Source: Methanoplanus endosymbiosus | GTDB taxonomy: Archaea > Halobacteriota > Methanomicrobia > Methanomicrobiales > Methanomicrobiaceae | Direction: 5' to 3' | DNA: 64,000 bases | Assembly: GCF_024662215.1 (NCBI RefSeq) | Contig: NZ_CP096115.1 | Coordinates: 1,302,001 to 1,366,000, forward strand | In this document: piece after piece, positions 41,755-60,361 of the stretch | How positions within the stretch are numbered: the stretch's first letter is position 1 | Layout of the letters: each line of letters opens with the position of its first letter | Notes under the pieces: generated by a model | What the model saw: the letters and a program-made list of their open reading frames with translations, nothing else | Told to the model about the DNA's origin: nothing | The model's database searches: none | Program-made: the position numbers and the translations under genes

Positions 41755-42147
41755 TTATTTATCCGGCACAAACTTGGTACCGTACACTATCGTTCCGCTC
41801 TCGCCGTCTGCAACAATCTTTCTGAAGGTCTGTTTGACAGGCATCCCGATGTAGATCTCATCAAGACCACATACAACAGGTGCTGTCATCCTTGTGCCTT
41901 CGTCAAGTTCAATGATTGCAACGGGGAAAGGTGCCTCACGATCATAGGGTGAACTTGCGGTTCTGACAATCGAGTATGTTACAACCTTTCCTGTGCCCTT
42001 AAATTTGTGCTCTACAACTTTGCCGTTTCTTCTGCATGTAGGACAGAGAGTCCTTGGCGGGAAGAAGTACGAGCCACAGGTCTCACACTTTGTTCCGAGC
42101 AGATTATATCTGTGTGGCTGTTTACGCCAGAATCGTGGTACAGACAT
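41755..42147 (-). CDS. DUF35 OB-fold Zn-ribbon protein of the thiolase/HMG-CoA synthase complex
   Basis: A 130-residue two-domain protein. A rubredoxin-like zinc ribbon (CETCGSYFFPPRTLCPTC, about residues 18-35) is followed by an OB fold (GTGKVVTYSIV, FPVAIIELDEG, GMPVKQTF). In methanogens the DUF35 protein bridges acetoacetyl-CoA thiolase and HMG-CoA synthase, so acetoacetyl-CoA is passed directly. Here it is the last gene after both enzymes, two bases from the thiolase stop. Confidence 0.92.
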   Translation of the reverse strand: MSVPRFWRKQPHRYNLLGTKCETCGSYFFPPRTLCPTCRRNGKVVEHKFKGTGKVVTYSIVRTASSPYDREAPFPVAIIELDEGTRMTAPVVCGLDEIYIGMPVKQTFRKIVADGESGTIVYGTKFVPDK

Positions 42148-42149
42148 AT

Positions 42150-43319
42150 TCAGACCCTCCCGAAGATATTACAGACAACAGTCGCACCTGTGCCGCCGAC
42201 ATTATGGGCCATCCCAATCTCAGCACCGTCAACCTGCCTTCCGTTTGCCTCGCCTCTCAGCTGTTCAACGATCTCACAGACCTGTTTTACACCGGTAGCA
42301 CCGACAGGATGACCGCAGGCTTTAAGGCCACCGCTTGGATTGATCGGCAGATCACCATCAAGTGCAGTATAGCCCTCTTCAGTAAGCCTTCCGGCCTCAC
42401 CTTTCTTACAGAATCCAAGATCCTCAATAGCACAGATCTCAGCAATGGTGAAGCAGTCGTGAACCTCAACAAAGTCAATGTCCTTTCTCTCAAGCTTTGC
42501 CATATCAAATGCACGGTTTCCGGCAGCAACAGTTGCATCAAGTGTGCTTATATCGCGCCTGTCATGCAGTGCAAGTGTATCCGTTGCCTGCGTGGTTGCA
42601 AGAACCTTGATAGGGGTATCGGTAAACTCCTTTGCCCTCTCAAGCGGACATACAATAACTGCTGCTGCACCATCAGTTACAGGTGAGCAGTCCAGAAGCC
42701 TTAGCGGATCTGCCACAAGAGTGGATCTCATCACAGCTTCAATTGAGATCTCCTTTCTGAACTGTGCGATAGGATTTCTTGCACCATTGTAATGGTTCTT
42801 AACTGCAACCTGTGCAAGCTGCTCCCGGGTCAGGCCATAGCGGTGCATGTAATCCTTTGCAATCATTGCATACAATGAAGGGAAAGTAACTCCATAGATG
42901 CCTTCCCATTCACGGTCAGCAGCACCTGCAAGGGTATCAGTAGTCTCGCCGCCGCCGACATCAGTCATCTTCTCAACACCGGCTGCAATGACAATATCCT
43001 GCATACCGGATGCCACACAGGTCACTGCCTGCCTGAAGGCAAGACCACCGGAGGCGCATGCTGCTTCAGTCCTTGTTGACGGGATATGTGTTGTTGATGC
43101 CAGGCCGGAGTAGTCGGATATAAGTGCACCAATATGCTCCTGAAGAACAAAACGGCCACCACTCATATTTCCTACAAACATCTCATCAATCTGGTCGCCG
43201 TCAAGATTTGCATCCTCAAGTGCCTTTGCCCCTGCCTCAACGCAGAGTGACCTGAATGATGTATCCCACTTTTCACCGAATTCAGTGAGACCTATTCCAA
43301 TAACTGCTACATCTCTCAT
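42150..43319 (-). CDS. Acetyl-CoA C-acetyltransferase (thiolase)
   Basis: A 389-residue archaeal thiolase that condenses two acetyl-CoA. Active-site Cys is in [12 protein letters not shown], with [17 protein letters not shown] near the C-terminus and [11 protein letters not shown]. Lacking introns and fitting the HMG-CoA synthase operon, it is the first mevalonate enzyme. Its start shares a base with the synthase stop. Confidence 0.93.
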
Positions 43320-44365
43320 TATTGCATCACTATTTTTCCTTTATGTTTGGCATACTGTGCATAGTCCAGATATACCTTGTCACTTAGCATATCTGCAACA
43401 GTGGGTGAAGCCTTCCGGTCTATCTCGGTCTCGATTGCATCGGTCACGGTTATGTCAAATGCGTCACTACCTGCACCTGATCCATATGAAGTGACAAAAA
43501 TTCTGTCGCCCGGTTTTGCAATATCAAGGGTTGCTGAAAGTCCGACAGGGACAGCACCGGAATAGGTATTACCAAGTGTAGGAACAGCAAGACCGGGATT
43601 AATCTGTTCAGATGTGAATCCAAGCATTGCCGCTACACTCCTTGGGAATTTGGCATTTGGCTGATGGAAGACCGCATAATCGTAATCTGACGGTTTTGTT
43701 CCCATCTGCTCAAGCATCATCCTTGCTGCACCCTGAATGTGCTTAAAGTATGCAGGCTCACCGGAGAATCTTCCGCCGTGCCTTGGATATGCCTGTCCCT
43801 CTCTTCTCCAGAAGTCAGGTGTATCAGTGGTAAATGAACAGGTGTGGTTTATCTCCGCAATTACATCATCATTGCCGATGAAAAACGCAGCTCCGCCGGC
43901 AGCGGCTGTGTATTCAAGAGCATCTCCCGGCGCTCCCTGTGCAATATCAGTACCTATGGCAAGGCCACACTTGATCATGCCACTCTTTACAAGACCCATA
44001 CAGGTCTGGATTCCGGCAGTGCCCGCCTTACATGCAAATTCATAATCTGCTGCCGTCATAACCGGAGTTGCACCTATTGCCTCACCGACTGTTACTGCCG
44101 TTGGTTTGACTGCGTACGGATGGGATTCACTGCCGACATAAACGGCACCGATGTCATCCGGATTTACATCCCTCTTTAACAGGGCATTTCTTGCAGCACT
44201 GACTGATATAGTAATTGTATCCTCATCAAGATCCGGGACGGACTTCTCCATCACACCGAGTCCGGCGGCAATCTCTTTGCCGTTTGCGCCCCAGACCCGT
44301 GCGATTTCCTCCGTTTTTATCCGGAATCTTGGGATATATGCACCGTATGTAATAATTCCTACCAT
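43319..44365 (-). CDS. Hydroxymethylglutaryl-CoA synthase
   Basis: A 348-residue thiolase-fold enzyme joining acetyl-CoA and acetoacetyl-CoA. Key parts: [25 protein letters not shown] with the nucleophilic Cys, and [13 protein letters not shown] with the catalytic His. It is the archaeal form. Two bases separate it from the regulator upstream and it overlaps the thiolase by one base, so regulator-synthase-thiolase-DUF35 are one transcript. Confidence 0.95.
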
Positions 44366-44367
44366 GG

Positions 44368-45069
44368 TTATTCCCTCAGAATTTCAATGATCCTGTCAAC
44401 TTCCATTTCAGTGCTCATGAGGGTGATCTTATCCTTTGCCGCAAGTTCAAAGACAAGCGGATGGATTTTATCGGTAGTAATACCCTGAAGAATCACTGCC
44501 CTTGGCTTAAAAGGAGTAACGCGGATCGCTATCATAGGCGATTTGCCTGTTGAAATATTTGTGAAAATCAACGCTCTCTCAGTACTCCACCCATAAATCT
44601 TGTTAAATTCATTGGAGGATAGCTGAGTTATTGCGTTGAGACTGTCAACAATTGTATATCCATAGATCCTGCATGAAGTATTTCCGGTAAGGAGCTGACA
44701 CCCTATTGCGTCACTAAGAGTCCGGAGTGAAATAGAGGCATCATAGTCATGCATGTCATAAATAACTTCATCATCAAAATCACTGTAGAGAATCTTGGCA
44801 TACTTCTTCATGTACCTGCCTCCATTCTCTTCATCGATTCTTAAAATTGCGTCAACAATCTTTCCAACAACAGCAGTACCGGGACTTTTGCGCCGTCCAC
44901 CCTCATAATCGGAGATGACTGACGGAGAAACCTCAAGTTTATCTGCCAGCACACCCGGTGGTATATTAAAATTAAGCCTCCATTTTCGGAGGGCATCCCC
45001 GGGAGAATCAGACATTGTGATCTCTCCGGCCATCTTTTCGGCAAGCCGGTTCCGCAGTGCGGATTTCAT
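44368..45069 (-). CDS. HTH (XRE-type) regulator of the mevalonate operon
   Basis: About 233 residues. An XRE-like helix-turn-helix, [20 protein letters not shown], lies at about residues 39-58, and the rest is an archaeal-type ligand domain ([34 protein letters not shown]). I choose ATG 45069: a TATA box (AATTATATTA, 45094-45103) 28 bp upstream predicts a leaderless start there. The open frame to 45207 is unlikely. It leads the HMG-CoA synthase operon and probably controls it and itself. Confidence 0.85.
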
Positions 45070-45087
45070 ACATAGATATGTGTCATT

Positions 45088-45132
45088 ACTGATTAATATA
45101 ATTAGCGAAGGGCACTTCGGCATTTCGCGAAG
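45088..45132 (-). promoter_or_regulatory. Promoter/operator of the regulator-HMG-CoA synthase operon
   Basis: On the minus strand CTTCGCTAAT-TAT-ATTAATCAG covers the TATA region. Upstream it is joined to inverted pieces: CGAAG/CTTCG (45106-45110, 45115-45119), and TTCGCGAA, a perfect palindrome, at 45124-45131. The blocks CTTCGCTAAT and ATTAATCAG also occur, three bases closer together, before the pyruvate synthase genes. An autoregulatory operator is likely. Confidence 0.55.
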
Positions 45133-57526: not shown

Positions 57527-57546
57527 ACTTCGCTAATATTAATCAG
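57527..57546 (+). promoter_or_regulatory. Motif shared with the mevalonate-regulator promoter, before porB
   Basis: ACTTCGCTAATATTAATCAG contains both CTTCGCTAAT and ATTAATCAG found at the 44368-45069 gene promoter. Its TAATATTAA can serve as TATA, giving a start near 57565 and a 40-base leader with an SD (GAGAGG) before porB. A shared regulator is the simplest explanation. Confidence 0.5.
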
Positions 57547-57604
57547 ACACCCAAGCCAAAATATCATTATAAATTATGACAAATCTTAAAGAGAGGTTTT
57601 AATA

Positions 57605-58486
57605 TTGGCAGAAATTCCGGAAGAGGAATATATTCTTAAAACGACATCGGCATGTGCCGGATGCAGTGCATCCCTGATACTCCGGTATGTCACAAAAGCC
57701 GCAGGACCTGATACAGTTCTTGTAGTCCCTGCGTGCTGTACAAGTGTAATCCAGGGGATTTACCCTGATACCGCAATGAACATCCCTGTTTACAACGTTG
57801 CATTCGCTTCAGCGGCTGCTGTTGCATCGGGAATGAGTGAGGCATTCCGTGCCGAAGGAAAGGACACAAATGTGATCTGTTTTGCAGGTGACGGCGGTAC
57901 GGTGGATATAGGAATACAGGCGCTGTCAGGTGCGCTTGAGAGGGGCACTGATTTCCTGTATATCTGCTATGACAACGAAGCATACTCAAATACAGGCATG
58001 CAGCGTTCAGGCGCAACGCCACTCGGTGCAAGAACGACCACAACTCCGGCCGGAAAAACAGAGTTCAGGAAAGACCTGGATGCAATAATTGCCGCACATA
58101 ATCCGGTATATATGGCAACCGCATGCAGCGCCTATCCTGATGACCTGTATAAAAAGATTAAGAAGGCACTCTCAGTTCCGGGCCCGAAGTTCATGCACGT
58201 GCTCGCGCCATGTCCCCCCGGATGGAGATATCCGTCAGATAAGACGATTGATATGGGAAAGCTTGCCGTTAAATCCGGCATGTGGGTACTGTACGAGAGA
58301 GAGAACGGAAAACTGAGCATCACAGGTGCATCAAAGGCAGCAATGGTGAAGAGAATTCCGGTACTGGATTATATTAAGGTCCAGGGCAGGTTTAAGACAG
58401 CCACAGAAGAGGACATTGAGGCATTGCAGAAGAGCGTTGACCTTGGGATTGAGAAACTGAAGAAGGAGGCTGAAGGAATATGCTGA
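57605..58486 (+). CDS. porB: Pyruvate synthase (pyruvate:ferredoxin oxidoreductase) beta subunit
   Basis: 293 residues carrying the thiamine diphosphate site: GDGGTVDIG...NEAYSNTG is the TPP-Mg motif, and CAGC near residue 17 with later Cys binds a [4Fe-4S] cluster. The start is TTG with GAGAGGT seven bases before. YICYDNEAYSNTGMQRSGATP matches PorB better than the 2-oxoglutarate or 2-ketoisovalerate forms. In methanogens the enzyme makes pyruvate from acetyl-CoA and CO2. Confidence 0.92.
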   Translation: MAEIPEEEYILKTTSACAGCSASLILRYVTKAAGPDTVLVVPACCTSVIQGIYPDTAMNIPVYNVAFASAAAVASGMSEAFRAEGKDTNVICFAGDGGTVDIGIQALSGALERGTDFLYICYDNEAYSNTGMQRSGATPLGARTTTTPAGKTEFRKDLDAIIAAHNPVYMATACSAYPDDLYKKIKKALSVPGPKFMHVLAPCPPGWRYPSDKTIDMGKLAVKSGMWVLYERENGKLSITGASKAAMVKRIPVLDYIKVQGRFKTATEEDIEALQKSVDLGIEKLKKEAEGIC

Positions 58487-59592
58487 CCATCGCAACCGGA
58501 AATAAGGCAGTTGCAACTGCTGTAAGGGATGCAAAGCCAAAGGTTGTCGCTGCATACCCAATTACACCCCAGACAGAAATAGTTGAGAATATTGCAGATT
58601 TTGTCTCTTCAGGAGAGCTTGACTCACGATATATTCCTGTCGAGTCAGAGCACTCCTCAATGGCAGCATGTATGGGTTCATCAATTGCAGGTGTAAGGAC
58701 CTTCACAGCCACATCATCGCACGGACTGGTATATATGTGCGAGATGCTCCATATGGTTGCAGCCGCAAGACTGCCTATTGTTATGGCAAATGCAAACCGT
58801 GCACTCGGCCCCGGATGGAATGTCTGGGCTGAACATTCAGATTCACTCTCCATGCGTGATACCGGATGGCTTCAGGTCTATGTATCAACCGTGCAGGAGG
58901 CATATGATGCAACCCTGATGGCATTCCGTATTGCTGAGGACAATGATGTCCTGCTGCCAGTCATGGTAAACCTTGACGGTTTCCTGCTGACACATATCAT
59001 GCAGGGCTTTGAGACCGTTGAATTAGGAGATTTCATCCCGGAAACTGACCTGCCGCATAAGATCGATGTCAACAATCCGGGAGGATACGGTACGCTCACC
59101 CCGCCAAATGAGCACTTTAAGTTCAGGTGGGACATTGAACGTGCACTTCGCGACTCAGTCAGGATCATTGAAGAGACTGAGAGCGAATTTGAGAAGCGCT
59201 TTGGCAGAAAATACGGCATGACCGAGGACTACCGCACTGAAGATGCAGTGGTTATCATCGTTTCCATGGGCACTCTTGGCAAAGAGATGGAAGTTGCAGT
59301 TGACAGCTTAAGAGAAGAGGGTATTAAAGCAGGTTCTGTCAGAATACGCTGGTACAGGCCGTTTCCGGACCTGAAAAGCAGGCTTGAGGGCCGGGACATT
59401 GTTGTAATAGACCGCGACTATTCATTCGGATTTGGCGGAATTGTTGCCAATGAGATCAGGGCAAAGTGCAATGTTAAACCTTACTCAGTCATTGCCGGAC
59501 TTGGCGGACAGGAAGTGACATATGATGACATCGCAGAATTTGTCAGGGACAGAAAAGCAGATTCTGAATTCTGGTTTGGGGTGAATGAATAA
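58480..59592 (+). CDS. porA: Pyruvate synthase alpha subunit
   Basis: A 370-residue subunit with AAYPITPQTEIVE, VESEHSSMAACMGSSIAG and the PorA-typical GLVYMCEMLHMVAAARLP. It completes the pyruvate-binding site. It overlaps porB by seven bases and abuts porG. Together with PorB this settles the substrate as pyruvate. Confidence 0.93.
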   Translation: MLTIATGNKAVATAVRDAKPKVVAAYPITPQTEIVENIADFVSSGELDSRYIPVESEHSSMAACMGSSIAGVRTFTATSSHGLVYMCEMLHMVAAARLPIVMANANRALGPGWNVWAEHSDSLSMRDTGWLQVYVSTVQEAYDATLMAFRIAEDNDVLLPVMVNLDGFLLTHIMQGFETVELGDFIPETDLPHKIDVNNPGGYGTLTPPNEHFKFRWDIERALRDSVRIIEETESEFEKRFGRKYGMTEDYRTEDAVVIIVSMGTLGKEMEVAVDSLREEGIKAGSVRIRWYRPFPDLKSRLEGRDIVVIDRDYSFGFGGIVANEIRAKCNVKPYSVIAGLGGQEVTYDDIAEFVRDRKADSEFWFGVNE

Positions 59593-60119
59593 TGTATGAG
59601 ATAAGACTTCATTCCAGAGGCGGCCAGGGCGGAGTAACAGCAGCAAAACTCCTTGCCCATGCCGCATTCCTTGACGGCAAGAACGCAACCGCAGCACCGT
59701 TTTACGGCGCAGAGAGACGTGGTGCTCCGGTAGTATCCTTCATCAGGATTGACGATAAGCCGATTAAGATCTATTCACAGATAAGAAAACCTGATCTGGT
59801 AATCGTTCTTGACATGGGCGTTATGGACACGGTAAATGTCCTTGACGGACTGAAGGAGGGTGGAAAGGTGCTAATTAACAGTCCGAATCCTGCTGAATTT
59901 GAAGGTTATAAGACCTACAATGTCGATCTCACAAATATCGCACTATCGCTCGACCTGATTGTATCCGGAAGTCCGATTCTTAACACCCCTCTTCTGGGCG
60001 CTCTTGCAAAAATGGGATTAGTATCAAGGGAATCTGTAAGAACAGCAATCAAAGAGGCATTTAAGGATGAAAGAAATGCAGAGGCAGCCATGAAGGCATA
60101 TGAGGAGATGAAGATATGA
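59592..60119 (+). CDS. porG: Pyruvate synthase gamma subunit
   Basis: A 175-residue gamma subunit: HSRGGQGGVTAAKLLAHAA, FYGAERRGAPVVSF and a conserved core to MDTVNVLDGLK. It overlaps porA by one base and porD by four. In many methanogens the order is porG-D-A-B; here it is B-A-G-D. Confidence 0.92.
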   Translation: MYEIRLHSRGGQGGVTAAKLLAHAAFLDGKNATAAPFYGAERRGAPVVSFIRIDDKPIKIYSQIRKPDLVIVLDMGVMDTVNVLDGLKEGGKVLINSPNPAEFEGYKTYNVDLTNIALSLDLIVSGSPILNTPLLGALAKMGLVSRESVRTAIKEAFKDERNAEAAMKAYEEMKI

Positions 60120-60361
60120 GCGCAAAACTTGCTATTTCAAGGCCGAAAACCGGTGCTGTCGGCAAGACTGGATCATGGAGGACTTTCAGGCCGGAAATTG
60201 ACCTGAATCTCTGCAATAAATGCGGTAACTGTGAAAAATTCTGCCCGGACGGAGTCATTGATAAGGAATATAATATCGACCTTGACTTCTGCAAAGGCTG
60301 TGGAATCTGTGCAGATGTCTGCCCTAAGAAAGCCATAACAATGGTCAGGGAATCCAAATAA
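60116..60361 (+). CDS. porD: Pyruvate synthase delta subunit (ferredoxin-like)
   Basis: An 81-residue 2[4Fe-4S] subunit with CNKCGNCEKFCP and CKGCGICADVCP, preceded by the PorD-type TGSWRTFRPEID. It passes electrons between the TPP site and ferredoxin. The TAA stop is followed by A/T tracts that may terminate the operon. Confidence 0.94.
   Translation: MSAKLAISRPKTGAVGKTGSWRTFRPEIDLNLCNKCGNCEKFCPDGVIDKEYNIDLDFCKGCGICADVCPKKAITMVRESK

Follow-up and report, generated by a model that had tools for sequence, protein, structure and literature searches.

Archaeal acetoacetyl-CoA thiolase, HMG-CoA synthase (HMGS) and a DUF35 protein form an enzyme complex, and among XRE-type regulators autorepression is the commoner arrangement. 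The literature that we searched held no description of the helix-turn-helix (HTH) gene leading the archaeal HMGS-thiolase-DUF35 operon or of its operator, nor of the control of acetyl-CoA entry into archaeal ether-lipid (isoprenoid) synthesis. Here we analysed a 64-kb stretch of the Methanoplanus endosymbiosus genome (the window), in which the HMGS-thiolase-DUF35 operon has the same gene content and order as other archaeal operons of this kind, with HMGS and thiolase scoring above curated cut-offs. An XRE-type regulator is the first gene of the operon and is linked to HMGS.

The regulator and its candidate operator at the HMG-CoA synthase promoter

The genes of the operon and the elements of its promoter are as follows.

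41755-42147, minus strand: DUF35/ChsH2-type OB-fold protein, partner of thiolase and HMGS (PF01796, PF12172)
42150-43319, minus strand: acetyl-CoA acetyltransferase (thiolase; NF053570, 629.8 bits, cut-off 600)
43319-44365, minus strand: HMG-CoA synthase, archaeal type (TIGR00748, 565.6 bits, cut-off 353)
44368-45069, minus strand: XRE-type regulator, 233 aa, with an HTH at residues ~23-75 and a C-terminal DRTGG-like-fold domain (HTH_3/HTH_31, AlphaFold, Foldseek)
45093-45107, minus strand: BRE-like CGCTAA and TATA box TTATATTAA (consensus YTAATTATWTAA)
45106-45109, minus strand: third half-site TTCG, abutting the BRE (conservation)
45116-45131, minus strand: imperfect dyad TTCGCGAAATGCCGAA of two inward-facing half-sites (pairing across 110 sequences)
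45106-45131, minus strand: operator-like element TTCG-N8-CGAA-N6-TTCG, here TTCGCGAAATGCCGAA GTGCCC TTCG (HMGS-trained profile, conservation)

HTH_3 and HTH_31 matched the window regulator weakly, HTH_3 reaching 22.2 bits against a cut-off of 23; HTH_3 was matched in 31 of 31 relatives, with a best value of 3e-9. The AlphaFold model of the regulator has a pLDDT of 82, and Foldseek paired the N-terminal part with XRE regulators (e.g., 7t8i, rmsd 1.9 over 56 columns), as expected of an XRE helix-turn-helix fold. The region of the recognition helix was invariant. Residues ~100-233 showed a DRTGG-like fold, with a Foldseek match to CBS-DRTGG (E ~1e-4) and a TM score of 0.63 to 2IOJ (target length). 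Since Pfam DRTGG had no match at E 0.1 in any of the 31 members, we term this domain DRTGG-like rather than a member of that family; a PDB sequence search with the domain likewise returned no match. Strongly conserved residues in the domain suggest a ligand pocket, and its conservation suggests a metabolite sensor. The regulator was present in 99 of 119 genomes of the phylum, and it was single-copy in nearly all of them.

The operator-like element and the BRE/TATA together span 45093-45131, and the third TTCG lies directly on the BRE/TATA. The XRE regulator-HMGS-thiolase-DUF35 operon was compared at 110 promoters from Methanomicrobiales, of which 102 had the consensus TTCGTGAAATGTCGAA-N6-TTCGYTAATTATWTAA, ending 23-25 nt upstream of the regulator ATG with nearly constant spacing. 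The N6 and the sequence past the TATA were not conserved in the 110 promoters, and the remaining eight, all from Methanocorpusculaceae, kept the dyad and lost the third half-site. The outer four dyad pairs were complementary in 92-110 of the 110 sequences. In Methanoculleus chikugoensis (L140), the dyad was inverted in place, as expected of a symmetric binding site. A profile trained on HMGS sites scored 28.9 at the HMGS promoter of the 64-kb window, and the next best site scored 2.9; the HMGS site was also the top match in nearly every genome. Thus, as in autoregulated operons, a conserved dyad stands at the regulator's own promoter. With ~24 nt between the TATA and the ATG, the HMGS transcript is probably leaderless; both the TATA and the predicted start follow the element, which would therefore act as DNA and not as leader RNA.

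The arrangement extends beyond the order. The three-half-site element with a TATA precedes regulator-HMGS operons in genomes of several other families (G083, G118, G110, G064, G072, G114, G138 and G154), and one genome (G082) had only the dyad at its HMGS operon. In the halophile-like genomes G092, G109 and G137, the regulator is not followed by HMGS and the element was not found; a fourth halophile-like genome with no HMGS after the regulator (G121) kept a dyad. Methanosarcina likewise conserves the element. As a separate observation, Methanosarcina-like genomes (L312-L314) have, ~260 nt upstream of the HMGS operator, another TTCG-N8-CGAA-like site, ATCGTCTTTTGACGAA.

From these data, we consider it likely that the XRE-DRTGG regulator, the product of the operon's first gene, has its operator at 45093-45131, that it represses the operon, and that acetyl-CoA synthetase is coupled to the operon in Methanomicrobiaceae. 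This reading draws on sequence, conservation, position and co-occurrence, from which we infer binding by the regulator, repression rather than activation, and a ligand.

The two-block motif and the oxidoreductase operon

The original prediction had placed two strings on the minus strand at 45088-45112 and on the plus strand at 57527-57546, each over a TATA box, as a motif shared by the HMGS operon and a pyruvate synthase operon. The features bearing on this proposal are listed below.

45089-45110, minus strand: motif copy 1, CTTCGCTAAT-TAT-ATTAATCAG, composed of the third half-site, the TATA and an unconserved tail (TCAG)
57528-57546, plus strand: motif copy 2, CTTCGCTAATATTAATCAG, rejected as an operator
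57556-57584, plus strand: conserved promoter block CCAAAATATCATTATAAATTATGACAAAT of the oxidoreductase operon (footprint across the family)
57566-57574: conserved TATA ATTATAAAT of the oxidoreductase promoter
57605-60361, plus strand: 2-oxoacid:ferredoxin oxidoreductase operon (beta, alpha, gamma, delta), a paralogue of uncertain substrate (curated cut-offs)

Both strings exist, although their coordinates were one base off, and copy 1 does span the BRE/TATA (45093-45107), whereas copy 2 lies ~20 nt upstream of the conserved TATA. Two observations favour CTTCGCTAAT and ATTAATCAG with a flexible spacer as the regulator's site at both promoters: pattern and profile searches of the genome found these two copies as the sole exact pair in 3.16 Mb with a 0-6 base spacer, and copy 2 keeps 17 of 19 letters in the sister species. 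However, 29 of 200 dinucleotide-shuffled sets of the 71 promoter regions in the window yielded a two-block exact match of at least 19 letters, so that the resemblance of the strings is weak evidence on its own. In addition, the exact motif was not found in 39 relatives with the same spacer range. Nor were both copies conserved when the two promoters were aligned across 30 relatives for footprinting. The left block of copy 1 was deeply conserved at the HMGS promoter and its right block ATTAATCAG was not, leaving the tail free to vary; copy 2 survived only in the sister species, as CTTTGCTAAAATTAATCAG, and was absent from other genera. Conservation at the HMGS promoter covers a sequence larger than, and offset from, the predicted string, and in the oxidoreductase promoter the conserved block, CCAAAAtATCATTATAAATnATGACAAAT, covers the TATA and sequence beyond it. 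Furthermore, the HMGS-trained profile gave -7.7 at the oxidoreductase promoter of the window and found no site at the oxidoreductase promoters of 28 genomes, where the best score was 8.4. With chance-level shuffles, no matches in relatives and no conservation outside the genus, we rejected the motif as an operator and regard a shared site of this form as very improbable; the two strings resemble each other by coincidence, and one of them overlaps a real element.

The pyruvate synthase identity proposed for the second operon is probably wrong, since the operon scored below the PorA, PorB and PorC cut-offs (395/550, 378/405 and 188/270, respectively), and its beta subunit was closest to the 3-methyl-2-oxobutanoate type. 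By the same kind of scoring, a paralogous operon at 1.94 Mb, ordered gamma-delta-alpha-beta, is the better pyruvate synthase candidate (543/550 and 401.5/405, with gamma at 264, above its cut-off of 225). The TTCG operator was absent from the promoter of this 1.94-Mb operon. Apart from these comparisons, a GATTATC...GATAATC dyad was seen upstream of the oxidoreductase beta gene in one genus (g7; L055, L056 and L058), with a less exact pair in another (g9); it may be the site of a different regulator.

Acetyl-CoA synthetase promoters and a second shared motif

Allowing up to two mismatches, the pattern TTCGNNNAATGNCGAANNNNNNTTCG gave 98 matches in 35 genomes, as compared with 27 for the reversed pattern used as a control. 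Matches that recurred outside HMGS promoters fell into three groups: the gap between the ADP-forming acetyl-CoA synthetase and the AMP-forming acetyl-CoA synthetase or TBP, where either gene is a possible target; the region directly upstream of the AMP-forming acetyl-CoA synthetase; and S-layer leaders. Built from HMGS sites only, a weight matrix scored at least 9.2 at the AMP-forming acetyl-CoA synthetase in 13 genomes, all of Methanomicrobiaceae and including both species of the genus. In the window genome, where this promoter is at about G000:C1:1991290, the site is degenerate, with a decayed left half (TTTG) and a score of 9.2; 2.5% of control windows also reach this value, a share that S-layer loci raise. 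At paralogous synthetases and in other families, the profile found no site except a weak one at an acyl-CoA-synthetase-like gene (G032). The restriction of the acetyl-CoA synthetase link to one family counts against the reading given above, as do the decayed half-site in the window genome and the two possible targets of the intergenic sites.

The position of these sites bears on the direction of control. At acetyl-CoA synthetase, the operator lies about one helical turn farther upstream of the TATA than at HMGS, a typical position for an archaeal activator, and the same regulator on the same operator could instead activate by recruiting TFB from its BRE-proximal site. We think this rather unlikely, since the third half-site abuts the BRE at HMGS, favouring TFB occlusion, and autorepression is the commoner XRE arrangement.

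Conserved TTCG-N8-CGAA-like dyads also occur within conserved leaders of S-layer genes in Methanomicrobiales and Methanosarcina (L102-L108, L221, L297-L300, L304 and L305). We rejected these as regulon members because their position, 45-105 nt ahead of the ATG, is inside the leader, where an RNA hairpin is the more likely identity; as such dyads are found there, not every one of them is this operator. A thiolase promoter of Archaeoglobus type was also rejected: the TTCGTTAAATGTCGAA at G099:C1:926395-926417 (L309), ~50 nt ahead of paired thiolase and DUF35 genes in an Archaeoglobi-like genome, is suggestive, yet the pattern did not exceed the reversed-pattern control in that family.

The S-layer dyads, together with the merging of the third half-site into the BRE/TATA, could be taken to mean that the element is not bound by the neighbouring regulator and is instead an unusually strong core promoter or a site for some other factor with a more global role. 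This appears improbable, because the dyad is 2-fold symmetric and lies upstream of the core promoter, it was inverted without loss in one species, and across whole genomes it is found almost exclusively at acetyl-CoA synthetases and the regulator's operon. Binding by the regulator of the operon thus remains our preferred reading.

A different motif is common to the promoters of pyruvate synthase and acetyl-CoA synthetase.

G000:C1:1943019-1943033 (also L347, L349-L355): ATTAATCATGTAAAAT, between the TATA and the start, common to pyruvate synthase and acetyl-CoA synthetase promoters

In the pyruvate synthase promoters of the order, ATTAATCATGTAAAATT stands immediately past the TATA. The exact core TTAATNATGTANAAT had ten matches in seven genomes and none in the control, and eight of the ten lay in the promoter of a pyruvate synthase or an acetyl-CoA synthetase. 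When a profile was built solely from pyruvate synthase promoters, most acetyl-CoA synthetase promoters of several families scored at least 10, the 99th percentile of the controls being 12.1; the top-scoring control loci were themselves other acetyl-CoA synthetase promoters. On that profile, the oxidoreductase promoter of the window scored 12.4, a weak match near the control 99th percentile. Acting at ATTAATCATGTAAAATT, between the TATA and the start site, a separate second regulator might link pyruvate synthase with acetyl-CoA synthetase, leaving HMGS outside that circuit. The counts of the exact core and the reach of the profile across families favour such a regulator, whereas the motif is short, AT-rich and overlaps the core promoter; we put its chances at about even, and it is compatible with the operator proposed for HMGS.

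Proposed regulation and comparison with known systems

For the preferred reading, a regulator dimer would sit on the TTCG-N8-CGAA dyad, with a further subunit on the third TTCG adjoining the BRE. Bound there, the regulator would be in competition with TFB/TBP for the probably leaderless promoter, and for this reason it most likely represses its own operon, i.e., HMG-CoA synthase, thiolase and DUF35. Repression would set in when the C-terminal DRTGG-like domain senses a metabolite signalling that acetyl-CoA or HMG-CoA is sufficient. Where the operator also stands at acetyl-CoA synthetase genes, as in Methanomicrobiaceae, it would tie isoprenoid lipid synthesis, at its first committed steps, to the activation of acetate.

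The small acetyl-CoA regulon of the original prediction is thus still plausible, but through other motifs and mostly with other targets than those proposed. The regulator of the first operon does have a deeply conserved operator-like site, also present at acetyl-CoA synthetase promoters; the motif and the second target assigned to it were wrong. More tentatively, and with somewhat less than even confidence, the phylum may have a two-module acetyl-CoA circuit, in which an ancient XRE-DRTGG sensor acts through TTCG-N8-CGAA-N6-TTCG on HMG-CoA synthase, with acetyl-CoA synthetase added in some lineages, and a second factor acts at ATTAATCATGTAAAAT on pyruvate synthase and acetyl-CoA synthetase. 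If so, both lipid synthesis and anabolic pyruvate would be connected to acetate activation.

The element is thus a phylum-wide operator candidate for an uncharacterised HMG-CoA synthase regulator, extended to acetyl-CoA synthetase in one family; a single-copy regulator with a phylum-wide candidate site beside HMG-CoA synthase offers a defined protein, site and target set. Compared with the DRTGG domains of the Clostridium pyrophosphatase (CBS-DRTGG, 3L2B) and AF1212 (2IOJ), residues ~100-233 of the regulator are alike in fold, but the regulator has no CBS domain and no Pfam DRTGG sequence match. With XRE/HTH_3 autoregulators, it shares a probable HTH_3-like domain, a short dyad at its own promoter and an invariant recognition helix. 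However, it differs from them in carrying a DRTGG-like C-terminal domain instead of a cupin or another known sensor, and in having an extra third half-site merged with the archaeal BRE.
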